Assembly: GCA_028289065.1 (NCBI GenBank)
Contig: JAQGHA010000009.1
Location: 62,001 to 126,000, forward strand
Reading direction: 5' to 3'
Length of the DNA stretch: 64,000 nucleotides
DNA from: Candidatus Saccharimonadota bacterium
GTDB taxonomy: Bacteria > Patescibacteriota > Saccharimonadia > Saccharimonadales > Saccharimonadaceae
The notes under the pieces were generated by a model that was not told where the DNA came from, did not search any database, and saw only the letters and a list, made by a program, of their open reading frames with translations. Both the position numbers and the translations under genes were made by a program. Each line of letters opens with the position of its first letter. The first letter of the stretch is position 1. Of this stretch, positions 3,184 through 11,867 are shown piece after piece.

Positions 3184-3941
3184 CCTAGAAACCTATCTAT
3201 CGCTTTGGTTGCACCGTCAAAATCGTCATCGTATACAAAGTGCCCAGCATTAGGTAATACAATTAATTCTGACTTTGATATCTTGGCATGCATAAGCTTG
3301 CCATCTGCTAATGGAGTTTCCGTGTCTCGTTCGCCCCATAGCAATAAGGTTGGCGCAGCAATGGCCGGTAAGTACTGCGTTAGGTCTTCGCGGATGGTAT
3401 TTAAAAATACCTGTTTCATAGCACCAGACTGTTGGTAATCACTACTTCCTACGGCTGCATACAGGCGCTCTCGCAAGCTTTTGCTCATTTTGTTGAGCCC
3501 TGGCAGTGCAGTCACCGCCTTACCTGTTTTAGCGACTGTACGATAGGCGATCATTTTAGCGGTGGTTTTCGGCTTAATACCAGCTGAACCCATGAGAATA
3601 ACTTTTTCAGGTTGTAGCAAGCCGGTCGCGACTCCTTTAATTATTACCCGCCCACCAAATGAATGGCCGAAAATCGCCGTGAGTTTAGATATATTCATTT
3701 TACCTACAAAAGCGGCGGTGAGTTCCGCATACTCCCCTACTGACCAGTTGCCATTCGGCACCGGGCTGGCACCAAAACCGGGGAAATCAATTCGAAATAC
3801 TTCGTGGCCGGTTACAACCAGGTGTTGAGATAGCTGGTCGAAAGACGCAAGTGATGTACCCCAACCGTGAAGAAGCAAGACAGCGTTTCCCTGACCCTCT
3901 TTTTTGTATTCAATTAGCTGTCCGTTTACGAGGACTTTCAT
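3180..3941 (-). CDS. Alpha/beta-fold hydrolase
   Basis: A 253-residue serine hydrolase. VLLLHGWGTS supplies the oxyanion loop (about residues 22-31), GHSFGG holds the nucleophilic Ser (about residue 94), LLLWGERDTETP holds the acidic residue and NAGHFVYDD the catalytic His. The family covers esterases, haloperoxidases and thioesterases, so the substrate cannot be named. It sits first in a coupled unit with murF (4-nt ATGA overlap) and ddl, so a role linked to envelope building is possible but inferred. A TATAAT at 3950-3955 lies 8 nt before the ATG and there is no ribosome site, predicting a leaderless mRNA. Confidence 0.88.
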   Translation of the reverse strand: MKVLVNGQLIEYKKEGQGNAVLLLHGWGTSLASFDQLSQHLVVTGHEVFRIDFPGFGASPVPNGNWSVGEYAELTAAFVGKMNISKLTAIFGHSFGGRVIIKGVATGLLQPEKVILMGSAGIKPKTTAKMIAYRTVAKTGKAVTALPGLNKMSKSLRERLYAAVGSSDYQQSGAMKQVFLNTIREDLTQYLPAIAAPTLLLWGERDTETPLADGKLMHAKISKSELIVLPNAGHFVYDDDFDGATKAIDRFLG

Positions 3942-3993
3942 ATGTCTTTATTATACTGCATTGTTATAGAGATATATAGAAATGGTTAAAGTG

Positions 3994-4389
3994 TTATTTT
4001 GCGGGAATTGATAACCAGTTTTTGATAATACTCGTTATTGGAATGAGGTTGACGGTGATATCTTCGATAGTCCTAAAGGTGAGCATTCCCCTAATATCGG
4101 AGCTCCATTCTATTAACTCGCTATCGTCTTGCATTACTGGAGCACCTTTTTTGTCTTCTTTGCGGGTAGCGCCCATATGGAGTATGAGCTTTACGACGCC
4201 CTGCTTATTCATAAGGTTAAAGGTGATTCTATCTTCGCCATTTAAAACGTAGCTTGGGGCATTCCATTTGATATGCTCTTCTAGCTGAGGAGCGGTTTTT
4301 AAGATAAGGTCACGGAGAGTATTTACTTGGAGGCGTTTATCCTCATTTAAATCGGCGAGGAATTCTTCGAGGGTTTTGTACTTTTGCAT
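3994..4389 (-). CDS. DUF1801 family protein
   Basis: A 131-residue soluble protein matching the DUF1801/YdhG-like fold: an N-terminal helix pair with LRDLILKTAPQLEEHIKWNAPSY, then strands with a VVKLILHMG segment and a C-terminal helix ending in a conserved IKNWL-like stretch. The family is small, cytoplasmic and of uncertain role, and is found widely in bacteria. A second, divergent DUF1801 gene lies at 25119-25484. A TATTAT box lies about 6 nt before the ATG, so leaderless transcription is likely here too. It is 52 nt upstream of the hydrolase, which has its own -10 box. Confidence 0.8.
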   Translation of the reverse strand: MQKYKTLEEFLADLNEDKRLQVNTLRDLILKTAPQLEEHIKWNAPSYVLNGEDRITFNLMNKQGVVKLILHMGATRKEDKKGAPVMQDDSELIEWSSDIRGMLTFRTIEDITVNLIPITSIIKNWLSIPAK

Positions 4390-4436
4390 ATAGATATAAT
4401 AGCAGAATTATAATGTGCTGATATTATTCAATATAG

Positions 4437-4465
4437 TTGCATAATTAGTTGTATTATACTATAAT
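4437..4465 (+). promoter_or_regulatory. Canonical promoter of the orphan membrane gene
   Basis: TTGCAT (4437-4442) and TATAAT (4460-4465) are spaced by exactly 17 nt. The transcript would begin near 4472 with a leader of about 70 nt containing the dyad GGCCactGGCC, a segment with the bases ACGTTA and GTCAGATC, and a strong TTGGAGGC ribosome site before 4544. Confidence 0.75.
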
Positions 4466-4543
4466 ATGCTTAGTTATGGCCACTGGCCGTGACAGCACGT
4501 TACGGTCAGATCACGATTCTTTTCCTACTTTGGAGGCTTTCGT

Positions 4544-5359
4544 ATGTTTGAAATATTTGATGGATGGGCGCTTGTACTTTGGACTCTCGGCGGCATAATG
4601 ATTGTCTGTGGAATTATCTGCTTTTTCATAGCAGATGGTGGTATGTTACTGGTAATCTTCGGTATTGTGGCGATCATTTGGGGCGGTGGAATCCAGACGG
4701 GTCACGACGCCAATAAGTTCGAAGTAAAGTCGGCCGGTGAGGCGTGTGTTTTAGAAAGCGCACGTGAAGTCCCAGCAGGAGCTACACTTGGCACAGCGAA
4801 AGACGACCGCGTTGGTCCAATCTATCCATGCTACTTCCTACTGGATCAAGGTATCCAACCGGGTATCGACGGAGTTTTCGATCCGGTCCCGATGAAGATG
4901 TTTGGAGAAGTCAACGAGTCGCTTTTCGCAGATCAGAATTTCACCGCGGAGGGAAACCTAGGCGGAGTGGCTCTACTTGGAACTGGCGTCATCAGCGGCG
5001 ACTATAAGGCAAGCGAAACAACCGAGCGCACACAGGTAGTCGCTTTCATGGCAGAAACCAGTGGCGGCTACGCAAGTTTCGTGGTTGAAACGGGTTCAGT
5101 CCGCTACAAGGAATGTGCCGATTGCATACCCAACGTGCGTATCTGGACTTCCAAGGAACCGATGTTTACCAAAACCCTTGGTGAAGAAAAAGATGACTCA
5201 ATTTGGCTGACAACAGAAGACGCACCCCCCGTTGCCTCGCTCACACGAGACAATGCACCCGTTTCGCCAGGTCGGACAGTTCAAGCGCTTGCCACGAGAA
5301 TCGTGATCGAGCTTCCCTCGTCACTTATGCCTGGGGCAAACCCTCTTCCTATCAACTGA
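4544..5359 (+). CDS. Orphan membrane-anchored hypothetical protein
   Basis: A 271-residue protein. Residues about 8-52 hold two hydrophobic helices joined by a short acidic turn; the remainder is an extracytoplasmic or cytoplasmic beta-rich domain with four cysteines (including an ECADC pair near residue 193) and a Pro/Ser-rich tail. I recognise no family. Its base composition and codons (GTC, CTT, GGC, CGC) are more GC-rich than the flanking genes. It is a single-gene unit: canonical N17 promoter, TTGGAGGC ribosome site 10 nt before ATG, and a strong hairpin terminator 20 nt after the stop. This pattern is shared with other foreign-looking genes in the window, so recent acquisition is plausible. 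Confidence 0.75.
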   Translation: MFEIFDGWALVLWTLGGIMIVCGIICFFIADGGMLLVIFGIVAIIWGGGIQTGHDANKFEVKSAGEACVLESAREVPAGATLGTAKDDRVGPIYPCYFLLDQGIQPGIDGVFDPVPMKMFGEVNESLFADQNFTAEGNLGGVALLGTGVISGDYKASETTERTQVVAFMAETSGGYASFVVETGSVRYKECADCIPNVRIWTSKEPMFTKTLGEEKDDSIWLTTEDAPPVASLTRDNAPVSPGRTVQALATRIVIELPSSLMPGANPLPIN

Positions 5360-5376
5360 CCAGTGCTTATCCACTT

Positions 5377-5435
5377 CCGCAGCGGCTTTAGATGCTTTTA
5401 TCTAGAGCTGCTGCGGGGTGGGTTTTTATTTTTGT
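5377..5435 (+). terminator. Intrinsic terminator of the 4544 gene
   Basis: CCGCAGCGGCTTTAGAT pairs with ATCTAGAGCTGCTGCGG (17 bp counting two G-U pairs) around a 6-nt loop and is followed by GGGTTTTTATTTTT. Confidence 0.85.
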
Positions 5436-5464
5436 AAAGTTTGGTTGTTGAAGTTGTAATTAAA

Positions 5465-6037
5465 TTAACTTCCGACTTGCCTTAGCCAATCTCTAATATA
5501 CATCCCGACTCTTTCTGAATCAGTTTCTTTAAGTACGCCCCCATGCATAATTACATTGCGAGATTTTTCCAATGTACTAATAATTTCCTTAGCCCAATCT
5601 ATGTTTGTCACGTGCGGCTCAAATAGTGTCCAGTTGCCCGCGATTATCGATATTAAATCGCCAAATTCAGTATAATCGATAAGGTTTTCTCCTCTCGCTG
5701 AGTGCCACCTGATGGTCTGTTCAATATCACGCCTATTCTCAGCTCTTGTTCTAACATCCTTTTTTACTGAAGTCTCCCACCAATCCGTACCCTTGTCCTC
5801 CTGAAGCATTTTTGTAACAAAGCTTCTAACTGTATTTTCAAAAGCATGAATAGCAGTATATACAGTCGAGCTCTCTGTTGCGGAGGTGACTAGGTTCTCA
5901 TCCATGCTATTTAGCCCAAGCTGGTCAAATTTTTTACTAAAGTCTGCGTCACTAAGTGCGCGCTTATTAGTTCTTCCAGCTTTATCTAAAGCTTCTTCAG
6001 TCACTAGAGCTCTAAAGACATAAGAGTACAAATCCAT
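5465..6037 (-). CDS. Swt1-type HEPN domain protein (putative RNase partner of DUF5343)
   Basis: A 190-residue all-helical protein with the HEPN signature R-x4-H at Arg160-Asn161...His165 (SRNVIMHGG), as in the Swt1 HEPN family, whose Arg and His form a metal-independent RNase site in active members. A second helix around residues 55-80 (SSTVYTAIHAFENTVRSF) is the usual first HEPN helix. Its ATG overlaps the stop of the DUF5343 gene (TAATG), so the two are translationally coupled and surely work together. HEPN proteins are common in toxin-antitoxin and abortive-infection systems; that role is inferred. No other nuclease or methylase lies nearby. Confidence 0.78.
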   Translation of the reverse strand: MDLYSYVFRALVTEEALDKAGRTNKRALSDADFSKKFDQLGLNSMDENLVTSATESSTVYTAIHAFENTVRSFVTKMLQEDKGTDWWETSVKKDVRTRAENRRDIEQTIRWHSARGENLIDYTEFGDLISIIAGNWTLFEPHVTNIDWAKEIISTLEKSRNVIMHGGVLKETDSERVGMYIRDWLRQVGS

Positions 6038-6678
6038 TAGAGTAAATGATCCTTGAGGCTCTTGAACAATGCATCATATACTGCAGGGTCACGAGATTCA
6101 GGAAGATGAATCTGAATATTATAATGTAAGCCTAAAGAATCTAGCCCGGTTAAGGAACCCTTCAAATCGGACTGCTTTTCTTCTTTAATAGTCGTAGTTT
6201 CAGTTTCAGGTATTTCTTCTATTTTCTTAGCTGTCGCAGGTATGGTTTTTTTAGGACTCCAAACAGCATACTCGGCAAGAGCTTTGAACGTATTAGCCAT
6301 CATGCCGTAAACCCTATCAGAATACTTTCCTTGAGTTAGTGTCTTTAGCTTACTCTTAACTTCATCTGCAGGCAGAGATTGAGCCGTTACGTTTACATTA
6401 AATAAATCCTCGTAAGCATCCATGACAGCCTGTGCCATTATTTCTTTTGACCTAGTTTGATCCATGAACTCGTAATATCGGGAGGTGGGTACTCCACTTT
6501 CTTCTAGAAAACCCAGACTTTTTAAAAGTCCTATGTATAGCCTATCGTTCGTACTTTTGAACTCTAAACTTTCGAGAAATTTCTGAGTAAAGGACTCCGG
6601 AGCGCGCGCGCTAATTAAACTATTAAAGAACGGTTCTACGTTTTTTGTCGTGATCAAATAAGATGTTGTGAGTGCCAT
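6037..6678 (-). CDS. DUF5343 domain protein
   Basis: A 213-residue protein matching DUF5343 over its first about 135 residues: FTQKFLESLEFKSTNDR, IGLLKSLGFLEESGVPTSRY and a MANTFKAL helix. The pattern suggests a winged-helix-like DNA- or RNA-binding fold. Residues about 136-175 are a Lys/Glu/Thr-rich linker and the C-terminal about 35 residues form a second small domain (GLHYNIQIHLPES). The start at 6678 is fixed by AAGGAG 6 nt upstream; a longer upstream frame has no such site. It is the first gene of a two-gene unit with the HEPN gene. I infer it to be the binding or antitoxin-like half of the pair; this is not proven by sequence. Confidence 0.8.
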   Translation of the reverse strand: MALTTSYLITTKNVEPFFNSLISARAPESFTQKFLESLEFKSTNDRLYIGLLKSLGFLEESGVPTSRYYEFMDQTRSKEIMAQAVMDAYEDLFNVNVTAQSLPADEVKSKLKTLTQGKYSDRVYGMMANTFKALAEYAVWSPKKTIPATAKKIEEIPETETTTIKEEKQSDLKGSLTGLDSLGLHYNIQIHLPESRDPAVYDALFKSLKDHLL

Positions 6679-6733
6679 TTCTATCTCCTTATAAATATTA
6701 GTATATAACATTCGTTTAGTTAAATGATACAAG

Positions 6734-6777
6734 GTTAATCTGTTAATACTCGAGTTAATCGGCAAATAGCAATTAAC
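6734..6777. promoter_or_regulatory. Cluster of GTTAAT/ATTAAC boxes upstream of the DUF5343-HEPN pair
   Basis: GTTAAT occurs at 6734-6739, 6742-6747 and 6754-6759, and an inverted ATTAAC lies near 6772, all 55-95 nt upstream of the DUF5343 start. Repeated half-sites like this are typical for autoregulation by a DNA-binding partner. A TATACT box sits between them and the start. Regulatory function is inferred. Confidence 0.35.
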
Positions 6778-6850
6778 CCACAATTAGTCCAATCGTTTAA
6801 TGGGTATAAACGTCATCTTAATCGAGGGAGCTTTTCTATTTGTCATCATA

Positions 6851-6874
6851 GTGCAGGTACAGGGACTCTAACCC
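6851..6874 (-). repeat. Truncated copy of the tRNA-Gly 3' end
   Basis: The 24 nt at 6851-6874 match the 3' end of tRNA-Gly (6997-7020) with about one or two mismatches; the core ggtacagggactctaaccc is identical. There is no CCA and no 5' half. Duplication of a tRNA 3' end in direct orientation is the usual scar of site-specific integration, but only 146 bp separate the copies. The rest of 6679-6995 holds a CCCTGGAC/GTCCAGGG hairpin (6900-6934) around an ATT-repeat loop, and no gene. Confidence 0.6.
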
Positions 6875-6955
6875 CAGCTCGCTGTGGCTCGCCGGGCTGC
6901 CCTGGACTATTATTATTATTGATTCGGTCCAGGGTTAGAAACACTATCATTCATA

Positions 6956-6994
6956 CCAAATAAAATTGCCTAGCTTACACTAGGCAATTTTATT
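6956..6994 (-). terminator. Terminator of tRNA-Gly
   Basis: A perfect inverted repeat (CCAAATAAAATTGCCTAG and its complement, 6-nt loop) begins at the encoded CCA end of tRNA-Gly and ends in an AT-rich tail. Confidence 0.8.
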
Positions 6995-7070
6995 TGGTGC
7001 GGGTACAGGGACTCTAACCCTGGACCTCATCCTTGGCAAGGATGCGCTCTAACAGCTGAGCTACACCCGC
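6995..7070 (-). tRNA. tRNA-Gly(GCC), CCA encoded
   Basis: Complete cloverleaf read on the minus strand: acceptor GCGGGTG/TACCCGC, D-arm GCTCAGCTGTTAGAGC, anticodon loop TTGCCAA with anticodon GCC, T-arm with GGGTTAGAGTCCC, discriminator A and an encoded CCA. The T-loop reads TTAGAGT rather than the usual TTCGA form, which is unusual. It has a canonical promoter at 7090-7118. Confidence 0.93.
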
Positions 7071-7089
7071 ATGGGTGGTTGCTTTATGA

Positions 7090-7118
7090 ATTATACAGAG
7101 GTAAGGCGGTTTTTTCAA
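7090..7118 (-). promoter_or_regulatory. Promoter of tRNA-Gly
   Basis: TTGAAA (7113-7118) and TATAAT (7090-7095) on the minus strand with a 17-nt spacer, about 20 nt upstream of the mature tRNA 5' end. Confidence 0.8.
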
Positions 7119-7132
7119 GTCGTTGGGCGTAA

Positions 7133-7169
7133 AAAGAAATACTCCCATCAAATGATGAGAGTATTTCTT
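7133..7169 (-). terminator. Terminator of tRNA-Phe
   Basis: AAAGAAATACTC and its complement form a 12-bp stem directly after the encoded CCA of tRNA-Phe, followed by TTTTT on the minus strand. Confidence 0.8.
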
Positions 7170-7244
7170 TGGTGGCTCCTCCCAGGCTCGAACTGGGGAC
7201 ACAGGGCTCTTCAAGCCCCTGCTCTACCACTGAGCTAAAGAGCC
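7170..7244 (-). tRNA. tRNA-Phe(GAA), CCA encoded
   Basis: Minus-strand cloverleaf: acceptor GGCTCTT/AGGAGCC, D-arm GCTCAGTGGTAGAGC, anticodon stem GGGGC/GCCCT with loop TTGAAGA (anticodon GAA), T-arm CCCAGTTCGAGCCTGGG, discriminator A plus CCA. Promoter TTGTCA-N17-TAAAAT lies at 7267-7295. Confidence 0.95.
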
Positions 7245-7266
7245 GCACTTGGTTTGAACTTTATCT

Positions 7267-7295
7267 ATTTTACTAGAGGTGGAGCGTTCTGACAA
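7267..7295 (-). promoter_or_regulatory. Promoter of tRNA-Phe
   Basis: TTGTCA (7290-7295) and TAAAAT (7267-7272) on the minus strand, 17-nt spacer. Confidence 0.7.
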
Positions 7296-7308
7296 GGTTA
7301 GCGATAGA

Positions 7309-7959
7309 TTAATTAGTAATTGCTGTATAGACCACTGTATCGGTATACGAACCAGCCGGTAGCGAGGTATCAGAGCAAAGTCCGTACCAGACCGGTGTTA
7401 TTTCAGCTATTGGGGCTGCGACTGTCTTATAGGCAATTGTATCTGGGCTGCCTAATACGGGCACGCCAGCAAATTGGACCGATGGCACTGTAGTATTCGA
7501 CGATGCCGTCGTTGGGCCAGCACCAAAGCCAGCTATGCTATCGACACGATAGCCCCAAGTATTGGCAGTTAACGATACGGGCGCTGCCCTAGTACCAGAG
7601 ATGGCTACTATTGCACCACTTCCACTTCGGAGTAAGTTTGTATCTGTATCGGCATCGTTTACTTGCAAGGTATAGCCGGTGCTTGAACCAGTGCGCACGG
7701 AAACTTCGTCTTTAGCAACCGTACAGGTAGTACTGCCGCCCGGGGTAATATCAGCTACGACGGTTGTAGATGAGGTCAAAGTAATACTGCAAGTACCAAA
7801 TTCGCAGGTGCCATACGAACCAATGCCGTAAGTAAGGCCTTTAGCTGGGCTCATCATCAGCACCGCAAACACAAACATTGCGAGAATATATAAGCCAACA
7901 AATTGAAAGTAGGTTTTTTTCTTTGCATCTATCTGTAACGACATAGACGAAATTCTCAT
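7309..7959 (-). CDS. Secreted beta-rich surface protein, paralogue of the 8923 gene
   Basis: A 216-residue protein with a signal or anchor helix at about residues 18-42 ending before a Ser/Thr/Gly-rich beta domain. Two cysteines follow the signal (GTCEFGTC) and two more occur later (TCTV, GLCSD), allowing disulfides outside the cell. The central NTWGYRVDSIAGFGAGPTT and the C-terminal SYTDTVVYTAITN are shared with the protein at 8923-9540, so these are paralogues. It is the last gene of a three-gene minus-strand unit with a DUF916-like protein, resembling in layout (not proven in fold) the WxL surface protein loci of Firmicutes. Exact function unknown; probably cell-surface adhesion or coat. 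Confidence 0.75.
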   Translation of the reverse strand: MRISSMSLQIDAKKKTYFQFVGLYILAMFVFAVLMMSPAKGLTYGIGSYGTCEFGTCSITLTSSTTVVADITPGGSTTCTVAKDEVSVRTGSSTGYTLQVNDADTDTNLLRSGSGAIVAISGTRAAPVSLTANTWGYRVDSIAGFGAGPTTASSNTTVPSVQFAGVPVLGSPDTIAYKTVAAPIAEITPVWYGLCSDTSLPAGSYTDTVVYTAITN

Positions 7960-7965
7960 ACTTTC

Positions 7966-8907
7966 TTATTTTTTAGTGGCTTGTTCGCTCGAGCGCTTCC
8001 GACGGCCGGTGGCTTTGGACTTGAAGTACAAAACAGTTGCGAGGAATAATGCTAGGAAAACGACAATAATCCATGGTTGAACGTAGATAATTTGTTCATC
8101 GGGGAAATTTTGGTCCTTATCGGCAACGGTGGCGCTTCGACTAATCGTGTATATACCCACTGGCGAAGTTGGGGCCCAATCGACCGGTATTTGGCGCTGA
8201 GTCTGCGGTAATACGTATCGCTCTATGGTCGCGTTATATACTTCTTTACCTGAAAAGTTTTTTACACTAGCTTTAACGGTTGCTTGGAAGTGGACTCCGC
8301 CGGTGTTACTCACCTTAAAACCAAGTGGGATACTGCCTTCGTATCGGAAACCGCCAACTGGCTGAACGGATGCATTGCCGTCGACCTTAACATCGCCTTC
8401 AACGGTGATATACAAAATATTACCAACACGATTACGTGGCTGTACTCCCCCACTTTGACTAGCTGCGTCTGGCCGGGTTTCAGCAAATAATACAGCGTAG
8501 TATCCACCAGCTGCTGTGCCGCTTGGTACAGTTACCGTGTAGTTAATATCGGCGGATTTTTGCGGACCAACGGTTACCAGTGGATTGCTTACTTTAATCC
8601 AGGTTGCCGTTTCGGTCGATCCAGGCAATTGTGTAAACAGCGGTGTATATTCAAGGCCGGTCACATAGTACGGCGAAGCTTTGGTTACTAAATTATAGGC
8701 GTCTCCACCGCTATTAAGTACCTGAAAACTTTTTTGAATCGTACTTCCCGCCTTAACCGATATAAGCGTGGAAGATGGTGACATAGTAATGTTTTGCGAT
8801 GTGTTCGCTTGGGCGTAAGCCGAAGATCCGACAAGTAATGGAACAGCTAGGACAACAAATGCGGCTAGTAAGAAAATTTTATTTTTCAGTGGAAAGCTCA
8901 ACGTCAT
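7966..8907 (-). CDS. DUF916-like (WxL-interacting type) surface protein with C-terminal membrane anchor
   Basis: A 313-residue protein: N-terminal signal (about 8-31), a first Ig-like domain with MSPSSTLISVKAGSTIQKSF and the GGYYAVLFAETRP strand typical of DUF916 peptidoglycan-binding domains, a second beta domain (about 170-270, VGIYTISRSATV), one membrane helix (about 281-300) and a basic cytoplasmic tail (KATGRRKRSSEQATKK). In Firmicutes such proteins bridge WxL proteins and the wall. Here it sits between two paralogous secreted proteins with 6-nt and 15-nt gaps, so a surface complex of the three is likely. The match is to architecture and short motifs, not a computed hit. Confidence 0.72.
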   Translation of the reverse strand: MTLSFPLKNKIFLLAAFVVLAVPLLVGSSAYAQANTSQNITMSPSSTLISVKAGSTIQKSFQVLNSGGDAYNLVTKASPYYVTGLEYTPLFTQLPGSTETATWIKVSNPLVTVGPQKSADINYTVTVPSGTAAGGYYAVLFAETRPDAASQSGGVQPRNRVGNILYITVEGDVKVDGNASVQPVGGFRYEGSIPLGFKVSNTGGVHFQATVKASVKNFSGKEVYNATIERYVLPQTQRQIPVDWAPTSPVGIYTISRSATVADKDQNFPDEQIIYVQPWIIVVFLALFLATVLYFKSKATGRRKRSSEQATKK

Positions 8908-8922
8908 ACCACTACCTTAGCA

Positions 8923-9540
8923 CTAATTAGTTGTTGCGGTATAGGTAACGCTGTTAGTGTAAGTGCCCGAAGGAGTAGCAGTATTAACAGCAACACTGTA
9001 CCAAACGGTTGTTACGTCGTTTGTAGCTGTTGTGCCAGTTGTCTTTAAGGTCTGAGGAGCACCGGTTGCAGGAACTGGGGCATATGTAGTTGTGCCGATA
9101 GTAGCATTACTCGCACCAGTTGTAGGACCGGCACCAAATCCACCGATGCCGTCAACGCGGTATCCCCAAGTGTTTGCCGATAAAGCCGTTGGCGACGCAA
9201 AAGTACTACCGGTAATAGCTGGAATTGAGTTACCACCAGAAACTAAAGCCGAAGAGCCAGTTGTCTCTGCAAGTGATAGTGTATACCCAGCTGAGTTGTT
9301 CGTACTCACGGTTACGGTGTCACTAGCAGTAGTTTGTACACCAGCACCAGTTGGTGTTGAGTTCAAGTTAACGGTACCAGAGGTAGTAAACACGTTAATA
9401 GCTGAGCCAATGGTTGAACTAATGGTTGTTGTTGTAGTCAATGCTTCAACAGTGAATGGGAATACTAAAACGGCTAATAAACCGAAAGTTAAAGATGCAG
9501 CTACTACTTTCGAACGAGTGAACAATGTCTTGGTTTTCAT
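8923..9540 (-). CDS. Secreted beta-rich surface protein
   Basis: A 205-residue protein with a basic N-terminus and a signal helix (about 12-33), then an almost entirely Thr/Ser/Ala/Val beta domain without cysteine. It shares NTWGYRVDGIGGFGAGPTT and the C-terminal TYTNSVTYTATTN with the protein at 7309-7959. Tryptophan-containing motifs (TWGYR, TVWYS) recall WxL-type domains, and the adjacent DUF916-like gene supports that reading. First gene of the unit: AAGG 6-9 nt before ATG and a canonical promoter at 9595-9623 predict strong expression. It may be an abundant coat protein; the role is inferred. Confidence 0.75.
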   Translation of the reverse strand: MKTKTLFTRSKVVAASLTFGLLAVLVFPFTVEALTTTTTISSTIGSAINVFTTSGTVNLNSTPTGAGVQTTASDTVTVSTNNSAGYTLSLAETTGSSALVSGGNSIPAITGSTFASPTALSANTWGYRVDGIGGFGAGPTTGASNATIGTTTYAPVPATGAPQTLKTTGTTATNDVTTVWYSVAVNTATPSGTYTNSVTYTATTN

Positions 9541-9594
9541 TTTTATACCTTGGTACTAATTTAATGTTAGTTTTTGATAATGCTTCTGTCCTCA

Positions 9595-9623
9595 ATTAAA
9601 CCATATCGATAATGTTTATACAA
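9595..9623 (-). promoter_or_regulatory. Promoter of the surface-protein unit
   Basis: TTGTAT (9618-9623) and TTTAAT (9595-9600) on the minus strand, 17-nt spacer, followed by a leader of about 50 nt with an AAGG ribosome site. Confidence 0.55.
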
Positions 9624-9674
9624 CTATGTAATTTCTACCTATGATTTCCTATATTACTAGGTTGGCATAAGTGG

Positions 9675-9680
9675 TATAAT
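9675..9680 (+). promoter_or_regulatory. -10 box of the tail-fibre-like gene
   Basis: A perfect TATAAT at 9675-9680 with no clear -35 box; the leader of about 35 nt carries GGAGAGG (9702-9708), 13 nt before the ATG at 9722. Confidence 0.55.
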
Positions 9681-9721
9681 TTTGTATAGAATCCGTAGAG
9701 CGGAGAGGTTAAAAATAACAG

Positions 9722-10468
9722 ATGAGCAGATTGCCGAACGTCGGTGGCGACGATAATGAGTGGGGTGTCATTTTAAATGACTATCTTTCCGTGTCGCTTA
9801 ATAGTGACGGTACTTTAAAAACAGCTTCTCTGCCCGCTTCCTCCCTTACCAGCTCAGGTATTGTAGAATTAGCAACTACCGCCGAAGCAATAACCGGTAC
9901 TGATGCGGTTCGCGCCGTTACGCCAGCTGGCCTCAGCGCCGCTAATGCCTATAAAGCTGATCTTAGCCATACCCATTCCGGAGCAGATATTACCAGCGGC
10001 AGTATCTCCGCTAGCTATTTGCCAGCTTCTTCGGCAGCCGCCTCCGGTATTGTTGAACTGGCTACTGTTGCAGAAACCCTTATCGGCACTGATACCGTTC
10101 GGGCTGTTACACCAGCTGGCGTTGATGCTGCCCTGGTAGTTGGTTCCGGCCCAATAACCCTTATAGATGCCGCCACGGTCGAAACCGACGCTTCGCTTTC
10201 TAATTACTTTAGGGTTGGTATTACTGCAAGCAGAACCCTAGGGGCCCCAACTAATCCAACTGATGGACAGCGTATTTTATGGGAAATTACCGCTGTAAGT
10301 GGCAATAAGGTAATTACCCCGGCTATCGGTACTAGTGGGTCGTTTAAATTTGGATCAGATTTTACAGTCATACCCATGATACTAAGCGGAACAACAACTT
10401 TTATTGGAGCTGTATATCGCTCCTCAACGGCGCGTTGGCACATTATTTCGGTAGGGTCAGGACACTAG
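9722..10468 (+). CDS. Phage tail-fibre-like protein
   Basis: A 248-residue protein built like a phage tail fibre. The N-terminus (LPNVGGDDNEWGVILNDYL...DGTLK) is the form seen at the start of many tail-associated proteins. Two tail-fibre repeats, SGIVELA...GTDAVRAVTPAG at residues 45-70 and SGIVELA...GTDTVRAVTPAG at 108-133, flank an HTH/SAD spacer, and a C-terminal beta domain (RTLGAPTNPTDGQRILWEI...AVYRSSTARWHII) is the usual tail-tip fold. No signal peptide is visible, and no capsid, terminase or lysis gene is near. The next gene follows after 3 nt, so both are one unit. Probably a receptor-binding or host-attachment protein; the route of export is unknown. Confidence 0.78.
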   Translation: MSRLPNVGGDDNEWGVILNDYLSVSLNSDGTLKTASLPASSLTSSGIVELATTAEAITGTDAVRAVTPAGLSAANAYKADLSHTHSGADITSGSISASYLPASSAAASGIVELATVAETLIGTDTVRAVTPAGVDAALVVGSGPITLIDAATVETDASLSNYFRVGITASRTLGAPTNPTDGQRILWEITAVSGNKVITPAIGTSGSFKFGSDFTVIPMILSGTTTFIGAVYRSSTARWHIISVGSGH

Positions 10469-10471
10469 GCT

Positions 10472-11830
10472 ATGGCTGTCTTATTTCAAGCAATAGGCAC
10501 AGGATCCTCTGCGACAACAGGAACCTTAACGGTACCGTGGCCCGTACATTTAGTAGACGATATTGGTCTTCTATTTGTAAATTCATCTGCTGGTGGAACC
10601 GTAGAGACCCTTGCAACGGCGAATGGTTTCACCTATTTGAATACATATTCAACGGGCACAGGTACCGCCGGTACGAAAATTGCTGTCTACTGGGCAAGAG
10701 CTACAACAAATACCATGGCAAGTCCAATTCTTACCGCTGGTTCCGATTATAAATACGGTGTCATTGCAACTTTCCGAGGAGCAATTACAACCGGTAGTCC
10801 CATCAACGTCTACGATGGAGGCGTCAAGGCTTCCGCTAGCACAACTGCATCCATTACGAGTGTTACAACTACCGTTACTGATACATATATTGTCAATGCT
10901 ATTGCCAGTGACCTTTCCTCAACCGCAGCCTTTGTAACGAGTTATACAAACGCTAATCTTTCCACCCTTACTAAGCGGTTTGATACTGGGACAACTAGTG
11001 GTTTGGGTGGGCAAATATCATTCGCAACCGGCGCAATGGCAACAGCTGGGCCGACCGGTACCACCAACGTCGTACTCACTTCAAGTATCAATGCCTTTGT
11101 TTCTTTAGCTCTTATACCTGCACCGCACCTTACCAGTTTCGTTAATACATTCGAGGGCGGTACAGATGGAGTTGCAATTACGAACGGCAATTCAGGTGGT
11201 GCCTCTGGTTTACAACTCACAAGTACCTTGTTCAACACAGGCGCATCAATCACATTCAGTAATATTATAGCTCGTGGCACATTAGCTATGAAAATAACCT
11301 ACCCTACAAATACCGCTGCTTACGGTATATGGAATTGGGAAAGTTCAGTCCGATCAGTTGCTCGTTTTTATGTTTATTTCAAAGATTTCATAGATCCAAG
11401 TTACTTCGAACTGATGCGCTTTCGAAACGCTACAAGCACACATACAGGTTTAATTACACTGGTGGATAGTTGCATAAGAATACGATCATTTAGTGTACAG
11501 GCAACTTCAGTAATAAAGATTCAGCCAAATAGCTGGTACAGATTTGAGTTAGCAGTCACCAAAGGAACTACAACTTCTAATGGGCGCGTTGAGTTTGTCG
11601 GTTATGATAATGATTCTCTTACTCCTTTCTATAGTTACGATAGTGGAACAACGGCTGACACCGGCACAACCGACTTATCAACTGTTCGTCTCGGGTCTGC
11701 AACCCCTGCAGTGAGTGACATGACTGTTTATTATGACGACTTTTCCGTCCAAGAACTTGCGTCTGGTTTTATTGGTCCTTCAGCCACCGGCACTAACTAC
11801 GATACAACTCAATTCTTATCCTTTTTCTAA
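10472..11830 (+). CDS. Large two-domain tail-like adhesin
   Basis: A 452-residue Thr/Ser/Gly-rich protein. Residues about 1-225 form a repetitive beta domain of the type found in phage tail and secreted proteins (VDDIGLLFVN, GFTYLNTYSTGTG, GVIATFRGAI, SPINVYDGG). Residues about 228-445 look like a concanavalin/LamG-type jelly roll (FEGGTDGVAI, YGIWNWESS, NSWYRFELAVTKG, YYDDFSVQEL), suggesting carbohydrate binding. No cleavable signal peptide is visible. It is co-transcribed with the tail-fibre-like gene, 3 nt apart. The first domain resembles the C-terminal domain of the pilin at 17401-18489. Function as a host or surface adhesin is inferred. Confidence 0.7.
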   Translation: MAVLFQAIGTGSSATTGTLTVPWPVHLVDDIGLLFVNSSAGGTVETLATANGFTYLNTYSTGTGTAGTKIAVYWARATTNTMASPILTAGSDYKYGVIATFRGAITTGSPINVYDGGVKASASTTASITSVTTTVTDTYIVNAIASDLSSTAAFVTSYTNANLSTLTKRFDTGTTSGLGGQISFATGAMATAGPTGTTNVVLTSSINAFVSLALIPAPHLTSFVNTFEGGTDGVAITNGNSGGASGLQLTSTLFNTGASITFSNIIARGTLAMKITYPTNTAAYGIWNWESSVRSVARFYVYFKDFIDPSYFELMRFRNATSTHTGLITLVDSCIRIRSFSVQATSVIKIQPNSWYRFELAVTKGTTTSNGRVEFVGYDNDSLTPFYSYDSGTTADTGTTDLSTVRLGSATPAVSDMTVYYDDFSVQELASGFIGPSATGTNYDTTQFLSFF

Positions 11831-11867
11831 ATTAAATTCTGGTTGTTTATAGAGGTATAATAGATAC

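Follow-up and report, generated by a model that had tools for sequence, protein, structure and literature searches.

Results

A coupled DUF5343–HEPN gene pair

Two adjacent genes in the 64,000-nt stretch of Candidatus Saccharimonadota DNA analysed here (the window) probably form an effector module that was gained by horizontal transfer and belongs to the PADLOC candidate system PDC-M34; its most likely role is that of an abortive-infection or stress RNase. The upstream gene (positions 6037–6678, minus strand) encodes a 213-aa DUF5343 protein (PF17278, E 6.4e-42), hereafter the partner, which aligns to positions 1-207 of the 208-position PADLOC model PDC-M34A (E 1.6e-76). The downstream gene (5465–6037, minus strand) encodes a 190-aa protein that matches the Pfam family HEPN_Swt1 (PF18731, E 2.6e-13) with 50.7 bits, above the curated cut-off of 27.5 bits, and covers positions 5-191 of the 192-position model PDC-M34B (E 2e-73). 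The window proteins thus match both halves of one PADLOC-DB system. The stop codon of the DUF5343 gene and the start codon of the HEPN gene overlap in a TAATG (6035–6039, minus strand), an arrangement seen in the sequence, supported by the gaps in relatives and likely to couple translation of the two frames. An AAGGAG ribosome-binding site (6685–6690, minus strand) precedes the DUF5343 ATG by 6 nt. The original prediction, made from the sequence alone, had given the coordinates, strands, frames and overlap of the two genes correctly and had rightly placed a strong ribosome site at the head of the unit. What it proposed as a candidate defence unit is already listed in PADLOC as PDC-M34; since the database lists both proteins, the DUF5343–HEPN pairing was already on record there as a candidate and is itself not new. 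We found no mention of "DUF5343" or "PDC-M34" in the literature searched and no published anti-phage test of PDC-M34; PDC systems are presented elsewhere as candidates that are unpublished or, for the most part, not validated (PMC12988326, PMC11811056).

Conservation of the pairing across genomes

Scanning a genome collection with three HEPN query sequences returned 65 loci from Patescibacteria, Bacteroidota, Bacillota, Spirochaetota, Planctomycetota, Pseudomonadota, Acidobacteriota, Myxococcota and others. A DUF5343 gene lies directly upstream of the HEPN gene in 59 of them. Pairs are also present in cultured relatives, for example Flavobacterium anhuiense (L037) and Methylomonas lenta (L048). 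As for the other six, two begin at a contig edge (L065, L069), three are remnants (L071, L072, L074), and one (L062, which coincides with L005 in the genome) encodes a distant HEPN protein with an SLFN_AlbA_2 neighbour. The gap between the two genes measures −11 to +12 nt, mostly −8 or −4, in 51/56 measurable pairs. Conversely, searching PDC-M34A against 349 genomes from the family of one Flavobacterium yielded seven matches; the HEPN gene follows directly in all six full-length partners, and the seventh match consists of the C-terminal tail only. The adjacency expected in the original prediction was hence recovered in both search directions. Taken together, DUF5343 and HEPN genes represent one conserved unit whose translation is probably coupled. 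Comparative sequence analysis establishes that the two proteins form an obligate and tightly linked genetic pair, in which the HEPN active site is invariant.

Structure and active site of the two proteins

The catalytic R-x4-H motif of the HEPN protein, R160-N-V-I-M-H165, is encoded at 5543–5560 (minus strand) and, as originally claimed for Arg160 and His165, is intact: R160, N161 and H165 are invariant across the 57 proteins of alignment A7, as are E67 and R71. A wider set retains the R and the H in 63 of 64 rows, the sole exception being a remnant. By this measure of conservation, the motif is under strong selection. AlphaFold2 models the protein as all-alpha (pLDDT 92.9), and a Foldseek comparison with the PDB gave no significant match, AbiA and HpeT being weak matches only. 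We consider the HEPN protein a probable RNase effector.

For the partner, AlphaFold2 predicts a confident helical domain (residues 1-140; block pLDDT 88–98), a disordered linker (pLDDT about 50) and a C-terminal helix of moderate confidence. From its helix/wing sequence pattern, we infer the N-terminal domain to be winged-helix-like. The partner fold, too, found no significant match in the PDB. Solved-structure homologues of either protein were sought by sequence and by fold, with no convincing candidate; a mitofusin match (E 0.0019) spans mainly the linker and was judged a chance hit.

A portable C-terminal tail ahead of different effector types

The last 32 residues of the partner (LGLHYNIQIHLPESRDPAVYDALFKSLKDHLL; 6040–6135, minus strand) are among its best-conserved parts (alignment A6), and conservation, profile search and downstream genes together mark this tail as a portable module. 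Profile A11, built from 14 tails including those of L188 and L198, was searched against 704 genomes of two phyla, centred on one gammaproteobacterium and one Flavobacterium. It retrieved 16 tail proteins, each with an effector-type gene directly 3′ (16/16). Twelve are followed by a HEPN_Swt1-type gene; one of the tail loci, L201, is the same place as L037. Six of these twelve effectors belong to a third subtype, characterised by the motif L-R-x-P/S-I-A-H, an assignment that Pfam confirms for two and that rests on likeness for the other four. In one of the tail loci (L203), the tail is out of frame with the head.

The remaining tails precede other effectors. In L198 and L204, a tail-bearing DUF5343 protein is followed by a Hypoth_Ymh HEPN (E 4e-30 and 6e-30), and the one Ymh-HEPN tested matches PD-Lambda-3_B (E 3e-17). 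L197 carries a DUF4145-like effector that scores just under the curated cut-off and has no clear R-x4-6-H. In L206 (817–2128), the head has no Pfam match to DUF5343 and precedes an effector of no assigned class with the sequence R-N-Q-C-A-H. A seventeenth tail locus, L188 (970–2587), likewise lacks a Pfam match to DUF5343 in its head, which is followed by a PNP_UDP_1 phosphorylase that matches PADLOC PDC-M60C (E 3e-35) and the PN-superfamily "Effector" (E 6e-15). Since their tails were part of the profile, L188 and L198 do not count as independent finds; L197, L204 and L206 do.

That one tail recurs beside several different effector enzymes suggests a modular immune design, and the units in which it precedes other effectors go beyond PDC-M34. 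We tentatively propose that PDC-M34 could be one branch of an unrecognised two-gene immune class, composed of a variable head, a linker and the conserved 32-residue beta-alpha tail, with an exchangeable effector encoded downstream that the tail would switch on. Heads in such a class might comprise DUF5343 as well as regions without a DUF5343 Pfam match; its effectors might include Swt1-HEPN, Ymh-HEPN, DUF4145-like proteins and the PNP phosphorylase; and the tail may serve as a shared coupling or oligomerisation module.

Upstream boxes and the toxin-antitoxin alternative

The original prediction had read GTTAAT boxes ahead of the unit as a sign of autoregulation. Four GTTAAT/ATTAAC words are indeed present within 44 bp (6734–6777), a density reached in 0/5000 local Markov resamples for that word and in 43/1000 for any 6-mer. 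The cluster is mostly absent upstream of relatives, and we rejected a conserved GTTAAT operator on this ground. Given the any-word frequency and the relatives mostly devoid of boxes, an operator is not established; as operators can diverge, the cluster may still be one. An Rfam scan of positions 3900–7400 detected two tRNAs only and no AbiF/AbiD ncRNA (RF03085), and an AbiF-like associated structured RNA was likewise rejected.

Autoregulation would be part of a classical protein toxin-antitoxin system, in which the DUF5343 tail blocks the HEPN RNase, DUF5343 represses its own promoter, and its degradation frees HEPN. Gene order (small partner ahead of toxin), the coupling overlap and the HEPN RNase itself fit such an arrangement, as do the possible repeats upstream and the combination of a disordered linker with a conserved tail, reminiscent of neutralising segments. 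Nevertheless, we consider this reading unlikely, since the boxes are not conserved, the same tail stands ahead of unrelated effectors, HEPN frames persist beside broken DUF5343 genes, and the partner was not found among the plasmid or phage records searched. As to the broken genes, an IS1595-type insertion splits DUF5343 in L030 (7191–9987), with a DUF6414 gene beside the transposase and the HEPN gene intact, and the DUF5343 gene is frameshifted next to an intact HEPN frame in L031, L046 and L067, although some of these lesions may be assembly errors. Such loci speak weakly against an essential antitoxin; they are still compatible with one, because polarity through coupling could also silence HEPN. 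Many addiction modules occur on phages and plasmids. The partner, unlike these, had no homologue in 50,697 phage records, 72,556 plasmid records or viral contigs; HEPN homologues were equally missing from viral contigs, and five plasmid records carry only distant Swt1-HEPN genes. With the partner lacking matches there, carriage of the pair by phages, plasmids or viral contigs was rejected. We also think that an exchange of effectors is more in keeping with immune sensors than with a dedicated antitoxin. Between a simple antitoxin and a sensor/activator scaffold, we lean towards the latter for the partner.

Horizontal origin of the unit

The pair occurs in 2/17 genomes of the genus, at different sites. 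The window HEPN protein shares about 60% identity with Parcubacteria-type and 57% with Bacteroidota sequences, and about 33% with that of its congener. A tree of 61 HEPN proteins resolves two deep clades that cut across phyla; the window protein falls into one (95/90 support for its 11-row group) and that of the congener (L070) into the other. As the two pairs sit in different deep clades, they point to separate acquisitions within one genus. Pairwise identities of HEPN and DUF5343 correlate (r = 0.92), which argues that the two travel together. In the nearest relatives (G006, G011), an alpha/beta-hydrolase gene is directly followed by rarA; in the window, a 7.9 kb block containing the pair and both tRNAs lies between these genes. 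Based on distribution and phylogeny, the pair was acquired horizontally, bearing out the acquisition assumed from the start. Besides the pair and the two tRNAs, the block (3984–11853) encodes a DUF1801 protein, pilin-like/secreted-type proteins and a protein of no assigned family with an N-terminal hydrophobic stretch.

The tRNA-Gly flank

Adjacent to the unit, ARAGORN placed a tRNA-Gly(gcc) at 6995–7070 (minus strand). The original prediction had taken its duplicated 3′ end for the mark of a site for acquired genes. The duplication is real (6851–6874 versus 6995–7018, enclosing about 130 bp), but the copies do not flank the pair and, rather than an insertion scar, constitute a conserved genus feature: the copy of the tRNA 3′ end recurs in three congeners, at the corresponding position in two of them and at a distance of 4.7 kb in the other. 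Three congeners have a homologue of the stretch between the copies (the model included the two closest; G012 was found by it, E 2e-30), so this stretch predates the pair. No third copy of the 3′ end exists in the assembly. A tRNA-flanked mobile element carrying the pair was rejected, as there are two repeat copies only and the pair lies outside both.

The view of the site as one for acquired genes did hold, because the genes in the 3′ flank of tRNA-Gly differ in every one of the 11 genomes compared, including the window with its HEPN pair (congener flank loci L173, L174, L111 and L181). One congener (G013) carries an OLD-family nuclease gene there together with that of a UvrD-like helicase, the latter named from sequence motifs, and G006 encodes a GajA-like ATPase about 2.5 kb from tRNA-Gly. 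These gene contents mark the flank as a genus-level hotspot of variable integration, with OLD-type defence genes in congeners. Elsewhere it holds a copper island with a CsoR-like regulator and a P-type ATPase (G012) or a recombinase-like gene, again named from sequence motifs (G014).

Separately, we observed a conserved element of ~150 nt downstream of tRNA-Gly (window 6848–6994, minus strand; L174, 4945–5130; L175, 3972–4165; L173, 2375–2529). It combines a terminator-like hairpin with two tRNA-derived copies, a partial one of the 3′ half in inverted orientation and the direct one of the 3′ end, and has an RNA fold z-score of −4.96, with 10 predicted pairs changed on both sides across three sequences. 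The element could act as an attachment site or as a regulatory RNA derived from the tRNA.

Genomic neighbourhood

In other genomes, the neighbours of the pair are diverse and mostly housekeeping genes (gyrB, guaA, ribonucleotide reductase, thiC), with no conserved third gene in the loci compared. Two related loci are exceptions (L019, L020), where the pair is embedded in a type I restriction-modification (R-M) operon as hsdM-DUF5343-HEPN-hsdS-hsdR. PADLOC families matched numbered 115 for 123 genes near the pair and 51 for 122 genes 60 kb away, an excess that seems to stem mostly from R-M models at a few loci. A general enrichment in defence islands, whose scoring the original prediction had suggested, is accordingly not established, and, the two R-M operons aside, the surroundings of the pair in other genomes mostly do not resemble defence islands.

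The frequent vicinity to core genes, e.g. after gyrB or ribonucleotide reductase, would suit a pair that processes RNA in housekeeping or under stress and has no link to phage. This we regard as improbable in view of the patchy distribution (2/17 genomes of the genus, 7/349 in the Flavobacterium-centred family), transfer between phyla, effector exchange and R-M embedding. That embedding, along with the published precedent of HEPN proteins in R-M operons (PMC3710099), might in turn hint at an accessory of type I R-M, a PrrC-like back-up for when restriction is blocked; with two related loci only and no R-M gene adjoining the window pair, such a function appears highly improbable.

Discussion

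Of the readings weighed, we favour a horizontally acquired effector module that answers infection or stress. In the mechanism we envisage, the folded N-terminal domain of the partner would sense a nucleic acid or phage cue, while the flexible linker and beta-alpha tail would hold or cluster the HEPN effector. Once triggered, HEPN, probably as a dimer, would cut cellular or phage RNA and thereby stop growth. The partner would accordingly integrate the cue and control a latent RNase, its tail acting as the coupling or oligomerisation module. R-M embedding at two loci and the OLD/UvrD and GajA-like genes in the tRNA-Gly flank count in favour of a defence role; housekeeping neighbours, the lack of partner homologues in the phage, plasmid and viral records searched and the lack of a significant PDB match count against it.

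A numbered candidate system hereby gains a testable anatomy, i.e. an invariant RNase active site, an obligate partner and a short tail that is shared with units carrying unrelated effectors. Two of these effectors are similar to defence effectors already known or listed as candidates. Should the tail prove to couple effectors in general, its 32-residue profile would reveal additional immune systems along with their effectors. The window moreover documents a candidate defence unit of the RNase type in a bacterium with a reduced genome and probable dependence on a host, in a genus that acquired the unit independently twice.

With regard to known systems, the pair shares with PDC-M34 the full-length matches, gene order and coupling, without essential difference, and is a divergent member whose nearest relatives are about 60% identical. 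Within the HEPN superfamily, its effector resembles the Abi2/Swt1 family (PF18731; Anantharaman et al. 2013, PMC3710099) in being Swt1-type with an intact R-x4-H, but is part of a stand-alone two-gene unit with DUF5343 and unfused to PIN or AAA+ ATPase domains. The type VII toxin-antitoxin system HEPN-MNT (MntA-HepT) is likewise a two-gene unit with a HEPN RNase, whereas the partner here is DUF5343 and neither protein of the pair matches a nucleotidyltransferase. PrrC and RloC anticodon nucleases are comparable in their HEPN-type RNase and, for L019 and L020, in the hsd-operon embedding; they differ in that the window HEPN protein, at 190 aa, has no ABC-ATPase domain and the pair usually resides outside R-M loci. 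Finally, the HEPN-type component of PD-Lambda-3 (PD-Lambda-3_B) resembles the Ymh effector of L198 and L204, whereas the effector in the window is of the Swt1 type.
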